This document shows, piece by piece, positions 33,709-46,228 of a stretch of DNA of 64,000 nucleotides; the first letter of the stretch is position 1, and the number at the start of each line of letters is the position of its first letter. Made by a program: the position numbers and the translations under genes. The notes under the pieces were generated by a model. It saw only the letters and a program-made list of their open reading frames with translations. It made no database searches and had not been told where the DNA came from. This DNA comes from Actinomycetes bacterium. Its GTDB lineage: Bacteria; Actinomycetota; Acidimicrobiia; Acidimicrobiales; RAAP-2. The stretch is from the NCBI GenBank assembly GCA_021778895.1, contig JAJYBR010000004.1, positions 62,001-126,000 on the forward strand, in the 5' to 3' direction.

Positions 33709-36651
33709 GTGTCCCATTCGGAGGATTGGCTCGGCATTACTGACATTCCATTCACTGCATATTCGTTACCTACTACGGACTTTCTAAGGAAGCCCTCAGC
33801 GGACGAGACTTGCACCACTTCGCGTTCGTATGCATATGCTCCCGACATCGCCACATTGACCTTCCTTTTCACTGATATTGAGTCGTCCACGTCGACACTC
33901 CGGCGACTTGGAGACGAGCGCTATGCGCGCGTTCTCGATGCGCACAATTCTTTGGTGACCGAGGGCATTGTGATGCACGACGGTGACATCCAGGGAAACA
34001 CCGGCGACTCATTCTTCGCGGTGTTCGACTCGGCCAAGGCCAGTGTCTCCGCGGCAGTCCATATCCAGCGCCTCCTGCGCGACTACTCCTGGCCGATCGA
34101 CACGGCGCCTCGCGTACGCAGGGGACTTCATACGGGCGAGGCGACGACCGCACCGACCGGTCTCGTCGGGTACCAGGTCCACCGCGCCGCCCGCATCGCA
34201 GCTGTCGGTCACGGCGGCCAGATCCTGCTCTCCTCGGCGACAACGGCCATCGTCGAGGAGTCGATCGACGACGGCATCCACTTTCGAGACCTCGGTCTGC
34301 ACCGCCTGAAGGACTTAGGCCGACCGGAGCGACTGACGCAGGTCGTTGTCGCCGACTTGCCGAGCGAGTTCCCCCCCGTGCGCTCGTTGAGCAATCCCGA
34401 GCTTGCGAACAACCTCCCCACGTCGCTGAGTCCGTTCGTCGGCCGGCGACGAGAGATCGGTGAGATTCGCCGACTCATCAGGGACCAACGCCTCGTGACA
34501 CTCGCGGGACCTGGAGGCGCCGGCAAGACGCGCCTGGCCCTGCAGGTCGCCGCCGAGCTCCTGGACGGCACCGGGGACGGCGTGTGGCTCGTCGACTTGG
34601 CACCCGTGATCGATCCCACCCAAGTTCCCCTCACGGTCCTGGCGGCACTCGGCATCGCGCCAGGGGACATCGCGACTGCCCGCGATGCGTTGCTCGGGAT
34701 TCTCGCGGGACAGAACTGCCTCCTCGTGCTGGACAACTGCGAGCACGTGCTCGACGAGGTGGCGCACTTGACCGAGTCCATCATGCGCTTCTGTCCCCAC
34801 GTGCACCTCATCATGACGTCTCGCGAGCCGCTCGGCATTGACGGCGAGGACGTGTACCGCGTTCGCTCTCTGTCCACGCCGAGCGATGACGCCGAGACGC
34901 GCTTGGACCTCATCGGCAGCGATGCCGTGGAGCTCTTCTGCCAGAGGGCCCGCGCACTGGACAAGTCGTTTGAGCTCACCGATGCCAACGCCGCCATCGT
35001 GGCCTCGATCTGCCGCAATCTGGACGGCATTCCGCTCGCCGTGGAGCTCGCAGCGGCGCGTCTGGCCACCCTCTCCATCGTCGACCTGCATGACCGCCTC
35101 GACCAGCGCTTCCGCCTCCTGACGGGCGGACGGTCCGCTATTCCTCGACACCAGACGTTGGGCGCCATGGTGGAGTGGTCCCACCACCTTCTCAGTCCGA
35201 TGGAACAGGCCGTCCTCCAACGACTCTCGATCTTCGTCGGTGGATTCGACCTCGCGGCCGCCGAAGCGGTCTGCACGGACAGCGACCTACCCGTCGCCGC
35301 GGTCGCCGACGCCCTCTCGTCGCTCGTCAACAAGAGCTTCGTCGTCGCTGAGCGTTCGGCGATACGCCTGCACTATCGCCTGCTCGAAACGATTCGGCAG
35401 TACGCCGCGCAGCGGCTCGCGGCCCCGGGCAACGACTCCCAACTCCATGACGTGCGAGAGGCTCACGCGCACTACTTCCTCGAGCTCTCGCGACGAGCTC
35501 GCGTGGGACTCTACGGCCCTCGGCAGGTCGAGTGGTTGGCGCACCTCGACGAGGCGCACGAGAACATCTCGGCCGCCCTCGCCTACCTCGCCACGGAGCC
35601 CGATGGCGATGCCGCCGTCCTCGAGCTGATCGCGAATCTGCACCTATTTGTGGTCACGCGAGGACGTCTCGACTGGTCACTCACGCTCTGCGAGACGTGG
35701 CGGCGCGACGTCGTCCTCCCGCGAGTGGTCGAAGCCAACGCGCTCTGCTGCCTGGGAGAGTTGCAGCGCCTCGATCTCTTGCCCACAGAGGTTCTCCTGC
35801 GGCGCGACCTGGTGCGGCGCGTGCTCGATGTCACGCGCGACTGTGACGATGTCTTCGTTCTCGTGAACGGGCTGGCGACGGCTGCCTATGTGGCCTGGGA
35901 GTCCGGTTCAACGAGCGGCGCAGCTCTCGCCGACACCGCTCTCCGCGTGGCACGCGAGAGCCGCGATCCGTGCCTCGAGGGTCTGGCCCTGCTAGCGCGA
36001 TCTCAGGTCGTCGGCTCATCAGCGTGTGAACGCGATCCATCGCTCACATTGCCGGAAGCGCGAACCCTCCTCACCGAGGCTGCCGAATGTTTCCGTCGCG
36101 CGGGCACGCCTGTCTTCTTGAGCAGCGTGCTGCTCAAGCTGGCGGTGACGGACTGGCAGACACTCGACGACGTCAGCGCCTCTCGCGAATTCCTGCGGGA
36201 AGCCAGCAACCTGCCCGACGTGGTCGGACCAGTGCAAACCTCGGCGATGCATCTGAACTATGCCCTGGCACTGGCGATCACCCGCAACTTCCCGTTGGCT
36301 CAGTCCAATCTGGCCATCGCATTCCGCGCCGCCCGACACATCCCGCGACATCTCAACCAGCAGCTGGGGGTCTTCACGTTTGCCCTATCACTCATTGAGT
36401 CGCAGATCGGCGACGCCGAACGCGCCGGTCTCCTTATGGGAGCACTCGAGCACTTCAGACCTGCCGATCCCCCGTCCTCGACCTTGGTCTGGAGCCCCTG
36501 CGAAGTGGAAGCTCTCCGAAACGCCCGCGAGCGTCTCGAGCAACTCATCGGGAGCGACACGGTGAGCGCTCAAGTGATCCGCGGTGCATCTCTCACCGAA
36601 ACGGAGTTGGTGGCGCACCTGCGTGGAGCTCTGTCGGGTGCGACGCACTAG
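33709..36651 (+). CDS. Class III cyclase-like domain / NB-ARC STAND ATPase / TPR protein
   Basis: 980 residues. A nucleotide-cyclase domain (about 50-215) has LTFLFTDIESST (metal Asp56) and GDSFFAVF (metal Asp100), but the usual substrate-specifying Lys is Gly96 and the transition-state Asn position reads His in YQVHRAARIA. A STAND/NB-ARC ATPase follows (P-loop GPGGAGKT about 267-274, LLVLDNCEHV about 337-346), then a winged helix and TPR-like repeats to the end. No LuxR-type DNA-binding domain is present, unlike many mycobacterial relatives. The GTG at 33709 is the first possible start after an in-frame stop at 33697, but the first about 45 residues are not family-like, so the true start is uncertain. 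Confidence 0.82.
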   Translation: MSHSEDWLGITDIPFTAYSLPTTDFLRKPSADETCTTSRSYAYAPDIATLTFLFTDIESSTSTLRRLGDERYARVLDAHNSLVTEGIVMHDGDIQGNTGDSFFAVFDSAKASVSAAVHIQRLLRDYSWPIDTAPRVRRGLHTGEATTAPTGLVGYQVHRAARIAAVGHGGQILLSSATTAIVEESIDDGIHFRDLGLHRLKDLGRPERLTQVVVADLPSEFPPVRSLSNPELANNLPTSLSPFVGRRREIGEIRRLIRDQRLVTLAGPGGAGKTRLALQVAAELLDGTGDGVWLVDLAPVIDPTQVPLTVLAALGIAPGDIATARDALLGILAGQNCLLVLDNCEHVLDEVAHLTESIMRFCPHVHLIMTSREPLGIDGEDVYRVRSLSTPSDDAETRLDLIGSDAVELFCQRARALDKSFELTDANAAIVASICRNLDGIPLAVELAAARLATLSIVDLHDRLDQRFRLLTGGRSAIPRHQTLGAMVEWSHHLLSPMEQAVLQRLSIFVGGFDLAAAEAVCTDSDLPVAAVADALSSLVNKSFVVAERSAIRLHYRLLETIRQYAAQRLAAPGNDSQLHDVREAHAHYFLELSRRARVGLYGPRQVEWLAHLDEAHENISAALAYLATEPDGDAAVLELIANLHLFVVTRGRLDWSLTLCETWRRDVVLPRVVEANALCCLGELQRLDLLPTEVLLRRDLVRRVLDVTRDCDDVFVLVNGLATAAYVAWESGSTSGAALADTALRVARESRDPCLEGLALLARSQVVGSSACERDPSLTLPEARTLLTEAAECFRRAGTPVFLSSVLLKLAVTDWQTLDDVSASREFLREASNLPDVVGPVQTSAMHLNYALALAITRNFPLAQSNLAIAFRAARHIPRHLNQQLGVFTFALSLIESQIGDAERAGLLMGALEHFRPADPPSSTLVWSPCEVEALRNARERLEQLIGSDTVSAQVIRGASLTETELVAHLRGALSGATH

Positions 36652-39726: not shown

Positions 39727-41133
39727 ATGGCAAGCGAGGGTCAGACGTCGAGCGCGGTCCAAGCGCTTGCAGGCATCTTCGCGGGCGCCGGTTTTTCCCT
39801 CGCCCTCACGTCTCGCACCCTCGTACCGCGCTCTGCGGGATTTGTACTGTTCCTCCTGGGTACGGCCAGGCTGACGCTCGAGGTCTACGTCGGGCGGGGC
39901 AACCGACGGGCCCTGCGACTTACGGGAGTTCTCCGTCGCGCCCAGTTCAGGCTTGGGGTGCTCCTGCACCTCAGAAACGAGGACTACCGGACTCGTCTCG
40001 ATGCTCCGACACAGCAACGCCCTCACGAAGCACCTCCAAGGTACATCGGCCCTGTCTATTCCCCCGAGTCGGAGTACGAAGCTGTCGACACTCTCCGAGC
40101 CAAGGTTCACTGCGCGACACTCGTGGGGACGTCAACGCACTGCCAGTTCTACCCGCGGGATTCCTGGGGCCCGACCAACTACCGTCCGACCTTCTACTGC
40201 GATGAAAGTCAGGTGGAGCGACCCCACCTCGTAAGGGCATCGGTTGACGATAGCGTCCCGCTACCTGTCACCCCCGAGGTCTTCCTCGCCGAGCTCGAAT
40301 CACTGAGCCAGAGTCCTGAACTCAAGCCAGTGCAGGCCGCTCTCGCAGCCAACGTCTTGGAGGACGTTATTCAACACGGGATGAATGGCTACCCGCGCTA
40401 CGTTGGACTGCCGACCGTCGTGAGGGGTGATCTCGTGATTCCTCTCGCCCGTAATTTCTACGGAGTTCACCAGCTCGCCACGCGGGGACTCATGATCCCG
40501 AGTTGGCCACAAGATTCCTCTCCGTTCTCGCTTGGAGTCCGCGTCGCCGTGACGTACCGCCGCGCCGGTCGGACCTTCGCACTCTTTCATCAGCGCTCAA
40601 CGGAGAATGGCGACTACGCCTACGCATGGGACATCGGGGCTGCGGGCTATCTCAACCCCGACGAGAAGCAACCCGATGTCACCATGCCTGACGGCCTCCT
40701 CTCACCCTTCGCTCAGGCACAGCACGAGTGCTTCGAAGAGCTGGGCTTCCCATCCATCGGCACCGGGAGCAATCCAGAGATGATGGAGTTCTTTGGCGTC
40801 ACTCGAGATACGCGGCTCGGCACCACCACGTTGTGTGGGGAGTGGAGGATGCCGTCATCACTTCCGCCACCAGACCTCGAGGCCCTTAATGGCGGACGCC
40901 TATCGCGAAAGGTGCGTGAGATCCGCGAGTGCGAGCTGACTCCGGACGCCTTCGCGCGGTTCATCACCGAGCTCGAACCGGGTCCCGGCGGTCGGCCGCG
41001 CATGGTGGCGGAGGCCCTTCTGTTGACCGTCTTGGTTCTCAGTTCGCACTCCTTCGATTGGTCCGACATCGAAGACGTGTTCGACTTCTTCGGGGTCATG
41101 AAGAGAGTGGACCTTCAACCTTCGGTGGCCTAA
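39727..41133 (+). CDS. N-terminal two-helix membrane / C-terminal Nudix-like protein
   Basis: 468 residues. Two hydrophobic segments near the N terminus (about 10-30 and 35-55: ALAGIFAGAGFSLAL, AGFVLFLLGTARLTLEVYV) precede a long cytosolic part. At about 295-345, AWDIGAAGYLNPDE and AQHECFEELGFP resemble a Nudix box in which the usual Arg of REUXEEXGU is His333. The middle part (about 100-250) is unassigned. A membrane anchor fused to a nucleotide-diphosphate hydrolase fold fits conflict-system effectors, but this is inference. No partner gene is directly adjacent. Confidence 0.6.
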   Translation: MASEGQTSSAVQALAGIFAGAGFSLALTSRTLVPRSAGFVLFLLGTARLTLEVYVGRGNRRALRLTGVLRRAQFRLGVLLHLRNEDYRTRLDAPTQQRPHEAPPRYIGPVYSPESEYEAVDTLRAKVHCATLVGTSTHCQFYPRDSWGPTNYRPTFYCDESQVERPHLVRASVDDSVPLPVTPEVFLAELESLSQSPELKPVQAALAANVLEDVIQHGMNGYPRYVGLPTVVRGDLVIPLARNFYGVHQLATRGLMIPSWPQDSSPFSLGVRVAVTYRRAGRTFALFHQRSTENGDYAYAWDIGAAGYLNPDEKQPDVTMPDGLLSPFAQAQHECFEELGFPSIGTGSNPEMMEFFGVTRDTRLGTTTLCGEWRMPSSLPPPDLEALNGGRLSRKVREIRECELTPDAFARFITELEPGPGGRPRMVAEALLLTVLVLSSHSFDWSDIEDVFDFFGVMKRVDLQPSVA

Positions 41134-41560: not shown

Positions 41561-41572
41561 TGGTGTCGGAGG
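41561..41572 (+). repeat. Left attachment-site candidate
   Basis: TGGTGTCGGAGG, identical to 46142-46153 at the tRNA-Leu 3' end. The flanking bases differ on both sides, so the identity is exactly 12 bp. Confidence 0.55.
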
Positions 41573-41625: not shown

Positions 41626-42147
41626 CTATTGGGAGTCGCCAGGAGTGATTTCCCTGTATTGGACTCCGTAGTCTGCATTGAAGTAGTCCCGCGCCAATGT
41701 GGCACCCTTCAATCCCGTCACGAGTTCTGGCGCGTCTGTCGAAACTCGAACTAGAAACTGGGACACCACGCACATCACGTCGCCCGTGATGAGAAGCGAA
41801 GGCCATCCAGGAAACTCGACATGCCGACGCCGCGTGAGATGAGCTAAGCGTTTGTGGATTTCGGGTAGACGCCTCCTCAGGCGCTCCGTCTCGTCGCCCT
41901 GTGGAGCCCATTCGCCGTGGAGAAAGTCGCTGATCACAATGTCATCTGGCTGAGCAGCGGTCTCAAGAAGAAACTCGCTGAGCACCCGAGTATGGATGAG
42001 ATGGCTCTCCACTAGTGCGTTGGCATAGACGACTTCCCAGTCTGCGCGTACTCCTTCCGTGGGTAACTCATGCAGGTGATGAAGCAGAACGTAGAGCATT
42101 TTCACTTCGTAACTAATTGCGTCGCAGTCCTCAAGTGTGGCCCTCAT
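41626..42147 (-). CDS. Helical cargo protein of unknown function (cargo gene 3)
   Basis: 173 residues, mostly alpha-helical by eye. The ATG at 42147 is chosen because GAGGAA lies seven bases upstream; an upstream start (42267) would add 40 Pro-rich residues and overlap the previous gene by 65 nt. The segment YANALVESHLIHTRVLSEFLL recalls helical HEPN-like or immunity proteins, but no catalytic motif can be claimed. It is last in the operon and closest to the left repeat. Confidence 0.6.
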   Translation of the reverse strand: MRATLEDCDAISYEVKMLYVLLHHLHELPTEGVRADWEVVYANALVESHLIHTRVLSEFLLETAAQPDDIVISDFLHGEWAPQGDETERLRRRLPEIHKRLAHLTRRRHVEFPGWPSLLITGDVMCVVSQFLVRVSTDAPELVTGLKGATLARDYFNADYGVQYREITPGDSQ

Positions 42148-42202
42148 ATAATTCCTCGTTGGTTGGGTACTCTTGGAGTTGGGTACTTCGGGTCGGGGCG
42201 AC

Positions 42203-42643
42203 TCAAGATCTGGAGGTTGCGGCATTCCAGACTCGTCGTGCCCAATTGGCGCCAGAGTCGGTTCCACGATTCGCTTCCGTGGCTCGGTCTCGAATGGTCC
42301 TCGCGGTTTGCGCTACGCGACGGAGCCCGACCATAAACATGACCAAGCAGAGAATGGCGATTAGCCCTGTTGATACTGCCACTCCTGCGAATACTCCGGT
42401 GGAGTCTGCGGAAAGCGACTGGGTTTCGAGAGTGGTAATGCAGCCACCGAACGCCCCGACCGCGATCCCGAAGAAGGTGAGAGAGACCGTTGGGCCTATT
42501 CCTCTTAGTGCCGAGATCTCCTCGTCAGTCACTTGATGCATTACGACGGTTCGGGTCGGGTAGAGAATTTGAGCGGGCTGGAACTGCTCAGCAGTTTGCG
42601 GAGGAATTACCCCGGAAGCGGTGACGTTTCTATGTTCGCTCAC
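42203..42643 (-). CDS. Two-helix membrane protein (cargo gene 2)
   Basis: 146 residues. Two membrane helices (about 53-73, LTFFGIAVGAFGGCITTL; about 83-106, GVFAGVAVSTGLIAILCLVMFMVG) are followed by a basic cytosolic tail. The ATG overlaps the stop of cargo gene 1 as ATGA. It could be a pore or anchor subunit of the cargo operon. No family recognised. Confidence 0.65.
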   Translation of the reverse strand: MSEHRNVTASGVIPPQTAEQFQPAQILYPTRTVVMHQVTDEEISALRGIGPTVSLTFFGIAVGAFGGCITTLETQSLSADSTGVFAGVAVSTGLIAILCLVMFMVGLRRVAQTARTIRDRATEANRGTDSGANWARRVWNAATSRS

Positions 42644-42969
42644 TTGAAGATCCTCGCGAGTCCTTCATCTGGATATGGTCCAGAACTGATTAACGGCAAG
42701 AGGCCCAAGACAGCGGCATTGAAGAACATCGAGTATCCACAGACCTTGCATATGAAGGCGAATTGGGGAGATACACCTCTGTTCGAAGATCCAGCCCAGA
42801 AGGGCGCGTCACCCGTCGGGATCACAGCCGCGGCCGTGTCAATGAGAAATACCCACTGGGCAAGGAAGAACTCGGACTTCGAACACACAGGACACGGCTT
42901 GAGTTCTCCGCCTGCAAGTTCCAAAACCTTGTCTATGACCTGCTGCTGAACTTCGAGAGAAAGGACCAT
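42640..42969 (-). CDS. Zinc-ribbon protein (cargo gene 1)
   Basis: 109 residues. CPVC (about 26-29) and CKVC (about 75-78) form a likely zinc ribbon around a hydrophobic middle, with FFNAAVLG after the second pair. Small zinc ribbons of this type (CPVC...C..CGY..FFN) occur next to membrane genes in mobile DNA. The ATG at 42969 follows a TAACAT box by 6 nt, so the operon starts as a leaderless mRNA. First gene of three. Confidence 0.7.
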   Translation of the reverse strand: MVLSLEVQQQVIDKVLELAGGELKPCPVCSKSEFFLAQWVFLIDTAAAVIPTGDAPFWAGSSNRGVSPQFAFICKVCGYSMFFNAAVLGLLPLISSGPYPDEGLARIFK

Positions 42970-43133: not shown

Positions 43134-43517
43134 GTGTCTGAAGACTTTCGCTCCGCACCGATGGCTTCTCCTGAGGGCGAGGGTCGAGCAAAGCGGGCGT
43201 GGAAGGCGTACGTCAAGGCAGTCGATCGGCACACCCCACCATTTGTTCGTCGAGGTACCGATGAGCTTGTGGGGCCCGTGGCGCGGCAGGCCGTCGAGGA
43301 TGCGATTGGCTTCTGGGTCACGTGGCACCTCTATGGTGGATTTGAGGGCCTTCAGGAGTTCGGGCTGCACCAGTCGACGATCTGGCGCAAGGTGGCGCGC
43401 TTCCGGAACATGACCGGCGTCCACCCTGACGTGTTCGAGATGCCTGGCGTCGCCATTGACGCCGCCGCCTACTGGGCCGCAGCGGGAACGAAAGTTGGCC
43501 GTCCCCCTCGCCGCTGA
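43134..43517 (+). CDS. Small helix-turn-helix protein of the element
   Basis: 127 residues. A helix-turn-helix is visible at about 68-92 (GGFEGLQEFGLHQSTIWRKVA then RFRNMTGVHPDVF). Such proteins occur next to Rep and integrase genes in actinobacterial elements and probably regulate them. The GTG is supported by the leaderless TAGGCT box. Inverted repeats just downstream, before the rep gene, are possible binding sites. Confidence 0.65.
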   Translation: MSEDFRSAPMASPEGEGRAKRAWKAYVKAVDRHTPPFVRRGTDELVGPVARQAVEDAIGFWVTWHLYGGFEGLQEFGLHQSTIWRKVARFRNMTGVHPDVFEMPGVAIDAAAYWAAAGTKVGRPPRR

Positions 43518-43577: not shown

Positions 43578-44636
43578 ATGCGAGTATCTCCGCTCACAGA
43601 GTTGGCCTCCGGCATCGACGCCCTGTACCTGTCGGGTCGAGCATCCGTGCCAGAGTCGCTCCTCGCTGCGTTGCAGGAACATCGCATTGTTGCTGAGACT
43701 CAGTCAAGGGCAATCCCCTTCGTGCTGGGAGAGGAGGAGTTTGAGCTTCTTCCTCATGGATGGAAGAAATACCGTTACTGCCTAGAGCATCCCTTCGGAC
43801 GCCTTGGAGTATCGCCCGGTCAGCACTTGCCCTCTGTGCGCATCCAGCCGCGGGCGTGGTATTTGCACGCCCAAGATCCCATCGAGGCTGTCAATTGGTA
43901 TCGTGCCGTTCTCGAAGCGGCACTCGGTCCGGTCCTGCTTTCTGTTAACCGCGTGGACCTCTTTGCCGACTTCCAGGGCTGGACGCCTTGCGGTGACGAT
44001 CGGCAAGACTTCGTGGGTCGAGCAATGAGTCTCACTACCTTCGAGGAGGGAAGCTCACTTACCGGCCTGCAATTTGGTCGACGCACTTCGGGCACCGTCA
44101 GCGCCCGTCTGTACGACAAGACTCGCGAGATCGCTTCTGGCGATGGCCAGTATTGGCCGGAGATCTGGGGAGGCGAGTTCGACAAGTCCAAGGCAGTGCT
44201 GTGAGTCGAATTCGAGGTGGCGCGAGAGGCCCTCCGGCAGTTCGGCGTTGCAACGCCCGACGAGGTGGTGGGTGCCGCCGGAGCAATGTGGGCCAACCTC
44301 ACTGAGGAGTGGCTCACTCATCGTGTGCGCAGTGGTGACGGCACGAAGTCTCGTTGGGCGGTATCCCCGGTCTGGCGAGACATCCAGCACGCAACGCTCC
44401 GCGGTGACTCGATAGGGCTTGCGCGAACGTATCGAGCCCAGCGATTGGGATATCTCGATGGGATAACCCCCCAGACGGTGGGCTACCTCGCCAGAGTTGC
44501 CGCGTATACGAATGCGGCCGGTCTGCGCGAAGTTCTCCCGGAACTCGTGAACCTGGTTCACCGCTACGAGGAGCGCACAGGGGTTACGTTCACGGAGCGA
44601 GTCACGGACAAGCGCCGAGAGAAGCATCTGCTATGA
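43578..44636 (+). pseudogene. Rep_trans-like replication initiation gene with an in-frame TGA
   Basis: One continuous frame of 352 codons interrupted once, by TGA at 44202-44204. The first part (208 residues) has NRVDLFADFQGW and RLYDKTREI, the pattern of replication initiation factors of the Rep_trans type. After the stop the frame continues with VEFEVAREALRQFGVATPDE, where relatives read W-R-[VI]-E-F-E; TGA stands where CGA (Arg) is expected, a single C-to-T change. Either the gene is inactivated or the base is a sequencing error. It lies between the HTH and integrase genes. Confidence 0.7.
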
Positions 44637-44726: not shown

Positions 44727-46163
44727 ATGCTGACGCTGGCGTACTGCCGAGTCTCGACGGAGGAGCAAGCCGAGGAGGGCTACTCGATCGAGGGTCAGGC
44801 GGACAAGTTGCGCGACTACGCGAGACTTCGCGGACTTGGCGACGTTCTCGTCGTCACCGATCCTGGTAAGTCCGGCAAGAACCTCAACCGTCCGGGCCTC
44901 CAACAGGTGTTGGCCGCAATAGAGGCGGGTCACGTTTCGCACGTGCTGGTGTGGCGTCTGGACCGGCTCTCGCGCAATCTTGCTGACTTGATTCTGCTTG
45001 CCGACACGTTCGGCGAGCAGGCCGTCGCACTCCACTCGGTCAGTGAGAATCTGGACCTCTCCTCGGCGGCGGGGCGCATGTTCTACAACATCCTCGGTAC
45101 GTTCGCGCAGTACTTCCGGGAGTCCCTAGTGGAGAACGTGAAACTCGGAAACGAGCGTGCAATCAAGGAAGGCCGTCACATCAACCGTGCGAAGCTCGGG
45201 TACAGCATGGTCGATGGACGCTTGGTCCCCAACTCCGATGCGGTGATGGTGCGAGAGATCTTCAGCCTCCGATCGGATGGGTTGAGCTACCGGCAGATCG
45301 AGGAACGGACGGGTGTGCTCTATTCGACCGTGAGTTCGGTCCTGCACTCTCGCGTATACCTTGGCGAGATCCCCCACAACGGCAAGTGGTTCCCCGGCAT
45401 CCATGACCCGATAATTACGGCGGCGGAGTTCCACGCAGCGCACCGCGGCTTTGGACAAGGTGTGCGTCGGGTCAGTGACGTTCTCTCCGGGAAGGTTGTC
45501 TGTGGTCTCTGTGAGCGGCGAATGGCGGTCAATCAGAATGGCCAGGGCTCACGTCAATACAAGTGCCGTAGTCGAGGCCAGGGCTGCGCGCAGCCTGCGC
45601 GCAGCACGGCAGGCTTAACGCGGGCCGCCGTACTTGGTCTGGCTTTGATTGGCGATAATGCGGAACTGCAGGAGGCCATTCGCCGGTACCTGCGGAGCGG
45701 AGGCTCGGACGACCCCCGCAAGGGGGGCACCGAGTCCCGCCGCGCAGGTGCGGCGCGGCGGCTAAAGCAGTTGAGCGACCAGCGTTTCAAGCTCCTCCAG
45801 CTCTATTACCGAGACAGAATCTCGGAGGAGTTGTTCACGCAGGATGAATCTCGGATCACGCGGGAGATTGCTTGTGCGCGCGATGAATTACAAGAGGCCG
45901 ACGGTGATGAAACCAAGCGGACTGACCTGGAAGCACGCTTCGAGCAAGTAGCGGCCATTCTCCGTGAACTTGACGTGGCGGCGATGTGGCAAGCGGCTAC
46001 GGAACCGGAGCGACGCTTGCTCATCGAGGAGATGATCGAGTCTGTTCGCGTGTTTCCTGACCATCTTGAGGTTCAGGTATCAGGCGCACCTGCCCTAAAC
46101 GTCCTACCCGGCGAGGTGGGCCTCAAGCAGTCGGAGGTTGTTGGTGTCGGAGGCGGGACTTGA
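44727..46163 (+). CDS. Large serine recombinase / integrase
   Basis: 478 residues. The N-terminal resolvase domain has the nucleophile Ser in YCRVSTEEQAEEGYSI and RLDRLSRN. A recombinase domain (about 150-250) and a zinc ribbon with CGLCERRM and YKCRSRGQGC follow, then a coiled coil (about 340-430). The ATG has AGGAGGGGG upstream. Its last seven codons and its TGA stop lie inside the tRNA-Leu gene, which is the attachment site. It catalyses integration and, with a directionality factor, excision. No directionality factor is recognised. Confidence 0.92.
   Translation: MLTLAYCRVSTEEQAEEGYSIEGQADKLRDYARLRGLGDVLVVTDPGKSGKNLNRPGLQQVLAAIEAGHVSHVLVWRLDRLSRNLADLILLADTFGEQAVALHSVSENLDLSSAAGRMFYNILGTFAQYFRESLVENVKLGNERAIKEGRHINRAKLGYSMVDGRLVPNSDAVMVREIFSLRSDGLSYRQIEERTGVLYSTVSSVLHSRVYLGEIPHNGKWFPGIHDPIITAAEFHAAHRGFGQGVRRVSDVLSGKVVCGLCERRMAVNQNGQGSRQYKCRSRGQGCAQPARSTAGLTRAAVLGLALIGDNAELQEAIRRYLRSGGSDDPRKGGTESRRAGAARRLKQLSDQRFKLLQLYYRDRISEELFTQDESRITREIACARDELQEADGDETKRTDLEARFEQVAAILRELDVAAMWQAATEPERRLLIEEMIESVRVFPDHLEVQVSGAPALNVLPGEVGLKQSEVVGVGGGT
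46142..46153 (+). repeat. Right attachment-site candidate
   Basis: TGGTGTCGGAGG, covering the encoded CCA end, the discriminator base and the 3' acceptor strand of tRNA-Leu. Identical to 41561-41572. Confidence 0.55.
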
Positions 46164-46228
46164 ACCCGCACGCCCCAAAGGGCACCAGCCCCTCAAGCTG
46201 GCGCGTCTGCCTATTCCGCCACTCCGAC
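46142..46228 (-). tRNA. tRNA-Leu (anticodon GAG)
   Basis: Read on the minus strand: a 7-bp acceptor stem GTCGGAG/CTCCGAC, anticodon stem CCAGC/GCTGG with loop TTGAGGG (anticodon GAG), a long class II variable arm, T arm GCGGG/CCCGC with loop TTCAAGT, discriminator A and an encoded CCA end (46142-46144). The 3' end is the integration site of the adjacent element and stays intact. Confidence 0.95.

Follow-up and report, generated by a model that had tools for sequence, protein, structure and literature searches.

The window analysed here, a 64,000-nucleotide stretch of contig JAJYBR010000004.1 from an Actinomycetes bacterium, contains three small genes which an initial annotation singled out as a candidate conflict system: a zinc ribbon, a membrane protein and a helical protein. 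Do these three genes form one system, and what might it do? The trio is not a recurrent system, while the pair formed by genes 1 and 2 is; two of the three genes can thus be identified as belonging together. Relatives are designated below by locus or contig (L) and genome (G) numbers.

Organization of the locus

Gene 1 (42640–42969, minus strand) specifies a 109-aa zinc ribbon protein (ZnR; CPVC-x44-CKVC-GYSMFFNA), gene 2 (42203–42643, minus strand) a 146-aa membrane protein whose two hydrophobic segments begin at residues 51 and 80, and gene 3 (41626–42147, minus strand) a 173-aa helical protein with an ATG start. Initiation of gene 3 at an upstream GTG (42267) would give a product of 213 aa; the ATG is preferred since the homology of its relatives begins near this codon, which is preceded by AGGA. 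The co-oriented arrangement noted initially, with 55 bp between genes 2 and 3, is borne out, all three ORFs lying on the minus strand. The ATGA overlap ascribed to genes 1 and 2 is in fact GTGA, 4 bases long. Nor was the leaderless promoter with which the genes had been credited recovered: a sigma-70 scan found 0 promoters (shuffled sequences, 0.5), and there is only a TAACAT, read from the sequence 6 bases before the gene 1 ATG, which is compatible with such a promoter.

Since ZnR and gene 3 have homologs in other genomes, genes 1 and 3 are coding and not chance ORFs; the evidence that gene 2 is coding is weaker (E 2e-4). The GC3 of genes 2 and 3 (0.58–0.59, against approximately 0.9 in the conserved flanking genes) is as expected of imported DNA. 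The initial annotation recognized no function in these genes, and the libraries agree. Neither Pfam nor NCBIfam assigns any of the three proteins to a family above cutoff, they hit 0 families among the PADLOC models at E ≤ 1, and nothing below E 0.04 was obtained in PADLOC with the ZnR, two-transmembrane (2TM) and gene 3 proteins that were tested. A Pfam match of gene 2 to Herpes_glycop fell below cutoff and was rejected.

The host element and its attachment site

Genes 1–3 form one end of an element of approximately 4.6 kb lying between two exact 12-bp repeats. The right repeat (46142–46153) is the 3′ end of a tRNA-Leu (gag) gene (46142–46228, minus strand, ARAGORN), the integration target; the left repeat (TGGTGTCGGAGG, 41561–41572) is an exact copy of it and probably represents the attachment core at the distal end of the element. 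Beside the tRNA lies a gene for a serine recombinase, the integrase (44727–46163, plus strand), the 3′ end of which runs into the tRNA. It has Pfam matches to Resolvase (E 2.2e-38), Recombinase and Zn_ribbon_recom and matches phrog_95 [integrase, E 3.5e-86]. Direct repeats at both ends, one of them in a tRNA 3′ end, together with an adjoining integrase identify a tRNA-integrated element, and the earlier description of the three genes as cargo next to an attachment site, inside the left repeat, therefore stands.

The remaining plus-strand ORFs, one at 43134–43517 (Pfam and PHROGs searches) and two at 43578–44204 and 44217–44636, have no family match. With their neighbouring frames the latter two (43578–44636) look by eye like one replication-initiator gene split by a frame change, which could reflect either a decayed element or an assembly error. 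No known defence gene was found inside the element.

That the repeat arose by chance is disfavoured in the window's own assembly (1.8 Mb, 94% complete), where the exact 12-mer occurs at these two places only; a 13-mer with one mismatch allowed occurs at ten places, two of which contain the full 12-mer. Other same-genus genomes were compared at this site. G041 is 90% identical to the window over 15.6 kb, the match ending exactly at 46142, and in G030 and G035 a homolog of the window recombinase (72% and 70% DNA identity, respectively) adjoins this tRNA. In five of six such genomes (G030, G048, G021, G076 and G041) at least one further 12-mer is present on the tRNA contig, the sixth, G035, having one copy there and 1 on another contig. 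Copies also occur on other contigs of G048 (1, coinciding with a second match to the tRNA query), G041 (3), G076 (1) and G021 (1), with none in G030, so that the 12-mer alone is no proof in G048, G041, G076, G021 or G035. Recombinase-like ORFs lie between the 12-mer copies in G030, G048 and G021 (Pfam test: G030). A search for an empty integration site with both flanks found none.

In its size and its position at a tRNA 3′ end the element resembles the pSAM2-like integrative elements of actinobacteria, and G030 has at this tRNA a sister element which carries, before its recombinase, RepSA [PF20199, E 5.8e-116, “replication initiator protein, pSAM2”]. It differs from pSAM2, the integrase of which is a tyrosine integrase, in its serine recombinase and in Rep-like ORFs which match no family. 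The G030 contig (L114, 621–11246) contains five 12-mers in a row, two recombinase-like ORFs and the pSAM2-type RepSA, apparently a set of stacked elements.

Two genes outside the element deserve mention. That at 39727–41133, just beyond the left repeat, specifies 468 aa, hydrophobic towards the N-terminus; to the eye the second half holds something like a Nudix motif, for which there is no Pfam support; a Pfam NfeD match of the same protein was below cutoff and was rejected. The 980-aa product of 33709–36651 resembles cyclases at its N-terminus (Guanylate_cyc, E 1.6e-4, narrowly missing the cutoff; PADLOC PycC, E 3.6e-6) and also contains an NTPase region of the NB-ARC/STAND kind (NB-ARC, E 2.4e-5).

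The zinc ribbon family

We define the ZnR family by the pattern C-P-x-C … C-x-x-C-G … N-A. The gene 1 product has both CxxC pairs, the NA motif and a profile match: aligned (hhalign) with a profile of seven other ZnR proteins it gave a probability of 97.5% (E 8.5e-12), and a profile which includes the window's own row returned it at E 1.3e-23. The protein presumably binds zinc.

Single-protein and two-row queries were too weak, finding no relatives in plasmids or viral contigs; query A1 recovered only the window from 298 genomes of the order, and the L014 ZnR as query found nothing in phages. When 396 genomes of the phylum were first searched with a profile, 11 had matches at E ≤ 0.01; one was the window's own, and the others contain the weak, unpaired relatives described below. 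The relative in the same-genus genome G061 (E 8e-4) adjoins, with a 4-base overlap, a two-helix membrane gene of its own. With the G061 protein as query we reached a 90-aa protein (E 7e-3) which E. coli and Salmonella carry on mobilizable plasmids of 2.7 kb; after this ZnR, too, comes a gene for a two-helix membrane protein, overlapping it by 4 bases. Further scans added ZnR proteins from viral contigs and from Peptococcaceae and Lentisphaeria genomes, a scan of genome contigs with a narrow pattern returning 20 stretches and 3 relatives.

Part of the family coincides with phrog_4293, for which no function is recorded. It matches the ZnR of the window (E 1.4e-5) and, over a range of E 3e-6 to 6e-3, those of the window, L012, L014, L029, L030, L037 and L077; with the ZnR proteins of L034 and L065 there was no match at E 0.01. 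When ZnR was compared with PDB sequences, the best E values were 0.43 and 0.55. Of the structural searches proposed in the initial annotation, Foldseek found no match at E ≤ 0.001 for the model of either ZnR or gene 3. For the ZnR model VIA-align listed nothing above Z 3.6, and the predicted fold says only “zinc ribbon.”

A group of weak ZnR-like proteins in Actinomycetota (L017–L025 and L027, mostly from family f77) is without a membrane neighbour, and several have FDAE or AAVP where the NA motif is expected.

A recurrent pair of genes

At 14 distinct places the gene directly after ZnR encodes a membrane protein. Ten of these are the window, L012, L014, L028, L029, L034, L035, L065, L077 and L078. 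The other four (L127, L129, L130 and L131) came from a last scan whose query, A17, consists of five paired ZnR proteins and thus favours the paired branch; among eight contigs matched, all four that had not been seen before carry the pair. Their partners overlap ZnR and match the partner profile A14, described below, at E 9e-24 to 8e-10. Repeated loci were counted once each (L028/L036/L126, L029/L075/L124, L035/L125, L034/L128, L012/L007/L076/L122, and the plasmid records).

In the first nine pairs the gap between the genes is −4 (five cases), 3, 6, 7 or 21, and seven of the nine partners possess two hydrophobic segments. Such proteins make up 11 of 109 ORFs of 80–250 aa in a baseline drawn from the nine pair loci and four others, partners included. 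The two exceptions have one segment by a simple measure: the L035 partner, yet it matches a Pfam 2-transmembrane domain, and that of L078, in a reading frame which ends early. Of the later partners, that of L131 shows one hydrophobic segment by this measure, and for L129 the start codons of the ORFs are ambiguous.

The association is not obligatory. Among 34 distinct, strongly matching ZnR proteins in the loci collected before the last scan, 10 are followed by a membrane ORF (L065 adding the tenth; eight of the ORFs have two segments), six by an ORF of at least 80 aa without a membrane segment, and 18 by no such ORF. All 24 partnerless proteins are specified by viral contigs, and none is followed by an ORF of at least 40 aa with a hydrophobic segment. 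The ten weaker actinobacterial ZnR-like proteins, left out of the count of 34, have no membrane gene within 60 bp. ZnR therefore exists without gene 2.

Searches of open-licence PMC papers listed no recognizable description of the pair. It is not named in any family library searched, where part of the ZnR family appears as phrog_4293, “unknown function.”

The membrane partners

Profile A14 was built from five other 2TM partners, with the window left out. Against 6,847 ORFs its distinct matches at E ≤ 0.01, beyond the family rows and a near-copy plasmid, are the L078 partner (E 4e-12) and window gene 2, the latter a weak match (E 2e-4) which shared hydrophobicity could explain. Comparison of window gene 2 with the 2TM partner profile by hhalign gave a probability of 73.7% (E 2.9e-5), again with a possible hydrophobic bias. 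The L065 partner resembles it faintly (22% identity, E 0.001 for a single comparison), and BLASTP shows no significant similarity to the partner in L028. These values weakly suggest that window gene 2 is a distant member of the 2TM family.

In L028 and L035 the gene 2 position is occupied by a different protein, matching CyanoTRADDas_TM [PF20712, E 3.7e-11 and E 1.3e-11, respectively], according to Pfam a 2-transmembrane domain associated with TRADD-N; these two do not match A14, and window gene 2 has no Pfam match to PF20712. Partner types, the A14 family on the one hand and PF20712 on the other, are thus exchangeable while ZnR is kept. The SLATT-type effectors are likewise small 2TM proteins; Pfam holds SLATT models, and none was among the Pfam matches of the 2TM proteins here. 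PMC7159879 counts the TRADD-N systems of bacteria as conflict systems and proposes that SLATT 2TM proteins, next to other conflict genes, are pore-forming effectors.

A protein similar to the L028 partner occurs in Rhodococcus plasmid NZ_CP042916.1 (L081), near genes whose annotations name the Fic family and an AbiGi-type antitoxin; the 8.3 kb examined around it contains no ZnR.

Genomic settings

The pair occupies a tRNA-integrated element in the window, plasmids in E. coli and Salmonella, and viral contigs. In the approximately 2.7-kb mobilizable plasmids (15 PLSDB records) the pair, Rep, Rop and MobA are all the annotated genes in the two records viewed. A DNA search, which would miss remote versions, located the pair in 14 of 5,426 E. 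coli genomes at 15 places, all on plasmids and 0 chromosomal. In three viral contigs (L028, L029 and L035) the pair lies directly before the small-terminase gene, in L029 also after the Rz lysis gene; in L034 it is approximately 2.7 kb from the small-terminase gene, on the other strand. The viral contigs which carry the pair are probably prophages. In L077 the pair is one gene away from a Replic_Relax gene.

Occurrence is sporadic, ZnR being found in two of 172 genomes of the window's family and in one of 113 in the class of the Peptococcaceae genome. By its spread the pair is horizontally moved, accessory DNA. The conflict-type layout perceived in the initial annotation accordingly survives in part: genes 1 and 2 recur as a pair on different mobile DNA, the three-gene system does not.

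Three contigs with a solitary ZnR, examined ORF by ORF, may be virulent phages. L071 encodes ThyX, a helicase and a PDDEXK-type protein and L030 an AAA protein, along with many small ORFs. Within the set L030–L074 the solitary ZnR genes lie in runs of small ORFs, with start and end modules that look shared and interchangeable, and the L071 ThyX carries an intein and an HNH domain.

Possible functions of the pair

Neither two-helix effectors nor zinc-ribbon sensors are a new idea. Here a zinc ribbon is coupled to two-helix membrane proteins of several kinds, and the elements that carry them compete for the same cells; the simplest reading of this is a sensor or regulator joined to a membrane effector. 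We therefore lean, with somewhat less than even confidence, towards genes 1 and 2 being a sensor/regulator and membrane-effector module whose task would be to exclude phages or to give abortive defence. ZnR would read a signal or hold its membrane partner in check; the two-helix hairpin of gene 2 would be the effector, permeabilizing or blocking the inner membrane; and by exclusion or abortive death the pair would protect the host, hence the element, against a phage or element that competes with it. The division of sensing and acting between the partners, the membrane target and the anti-phage role are inferred. A role in either defence or addiction would explain why the pair takes up a quarter of a 2.7-kb plasmid and a sixth of a 4.6-kb element, and the version on E. 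coli plasmids (L014, 228–901) lets function be tested quickly.

The main rival, which we regard as a reasonable possibility of the second rank, is a toxin–antitoxin pair. ZnR, encoded first, would be the antitoxin and the 2TM protein a membrane toxin, the pair serving to maintain its plasmid or element, and the solitary ZnR proteins of phages, as in viral contig L071, would be antidotes. Overlap of the first and second gene is typical of such pairs, and by layout alone, two small overlapping genes with the putative antitoxin first, the locus looks like a type II system. The pair is, moreover, the main cargo of tiny plasmids, and the L028 ZnR weakly resembles, below cutoff, zinc fingers of the MqsA type [TIGR03831, E 0.0079]. 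Against this, ZnR has no recognized DNA-binding domain, and addiction alone leaves unexplained why three viral contigs should have the pair immediately before the small-terminase gene.

Pure superinfection exclusion, in which a constitutive ZnR–2TM membrane complex would block the entry of related phage or plasmid DNA and kill no cells, appears unlikely. A small membrane protein carried by plasmids and at what are probably prophage cargo sites would suit it; ZnR, lacking a membrane signal, has no obvious role in blocking entry, and neither Pfam nor PHROGs gave a significant match to a named exclusion protein.

The position next to the terminase invites comparison with Rip1, “ring interacting pore 1” (PDB 9oox), which gp37 of phage HK446 matches over 162 residues. 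Rip1 is likewise phage-encoded, and its C-terminal CAQC…CHRC segment is zinc-ribbon-like. In a conference report (PMC12908700) RIP1, presumably the 9oox protein from its name and its link to terminase, is a prophage protein which caps the phage terminase ring, and a pore-based defence is suggested. The three pairs placed directly before small-terminase genes parallel this, with the difference that Rip1 is a single protein of 164 aa whereas here ZnR and the membrane part are specified by two genes. Homology to the pair was not found (hhalign probability 0.7%), and the ZnR model aligns with 9oox at Z 2.6 (46 residues, rmsd 3.2), among many zinc ribbons to which it is unrelated. Rip1 serves as an analogy only. 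One could imagine, as a rather doubtful extension, that the pair is a split counterpart of Rip1, a minimal two-gene immune module in which ZnR, on recognizing a late phage protein such as the terminase or another ring, would arm an exchangeable 2TM pore. The solitary ZnR proteins of virulent phages would then be antidotes or decoys, and the plasmids, prophages and actinobacterial element would carry versions with different targets.

Gene 3 and the extent of the system

That the three genes are one system, with gene 3 a needed partner, is improbable. Their common orientation and the 55-bp gap would allow it, and two gene 3 relatives have suggestive neighbours, the one in L011 overlapping a 1-TM ORF and the one in L080 (1–2402) lying between HNH endonuclease and C5 DNA methylase genes. 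Judged by the refuting condition which the initial annotation itself set, absence of co-occurrence elsewhere, the pair holds up and the trio does not: hmmsearch of 6,847 ORFs and the four later loci found no gene 3 homolog in the DNA examined around the 13 other pairs, nor, among the same 6,847 ORFs, a ZnR near any gene 3 homolog. Probably gene 3 is a separate piece of cargo that shares their transcript.

Hardly any weight is left for the view that mobile elements carry these as ordinary accessory genes, connected with the membrane, stress or replication, which have no part in conflict, for even though ZnR also occurs alone and the function of the pair is read from sequence, the different 2TM types, PF20712 included, and the spread over unrelated kinds of element speak against it.

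Gene 3 belongs to a separate family, with homologs in L009, L010, L011 and L080; used as a query in plasmids it found nothing. The five aligned rows share E47, H52, R54, D68, D69, W80, H103 and R108. Its AlphaFold2 model is weak (mean pLDDT 62) and gave only E ≥ 0.4 in Foldseek. In VIA-align the top rows are the HEPN toxins 7ae6 (Z 10.0, rmsd 3.5, 123 aligned residues) and 7ae8 (Z 9.5), with unrelated chains reaching 9.0, and lower rows include 1jog (HI0074, Z 8.2) and a HEPN–MNT complex (8xeh, Z 7.4); the program warns that in helical bundles a Z below about 13 can arise from the arrangement of helices alone. The R-x4-6-H motif of HEPN proteins is not conserved, an Arg standing 5 to 7 residues before the invariant H103 in one of the five rows (L080). 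On the modelled fold, gene 3 perhaps specifies a HEPN-like protein.
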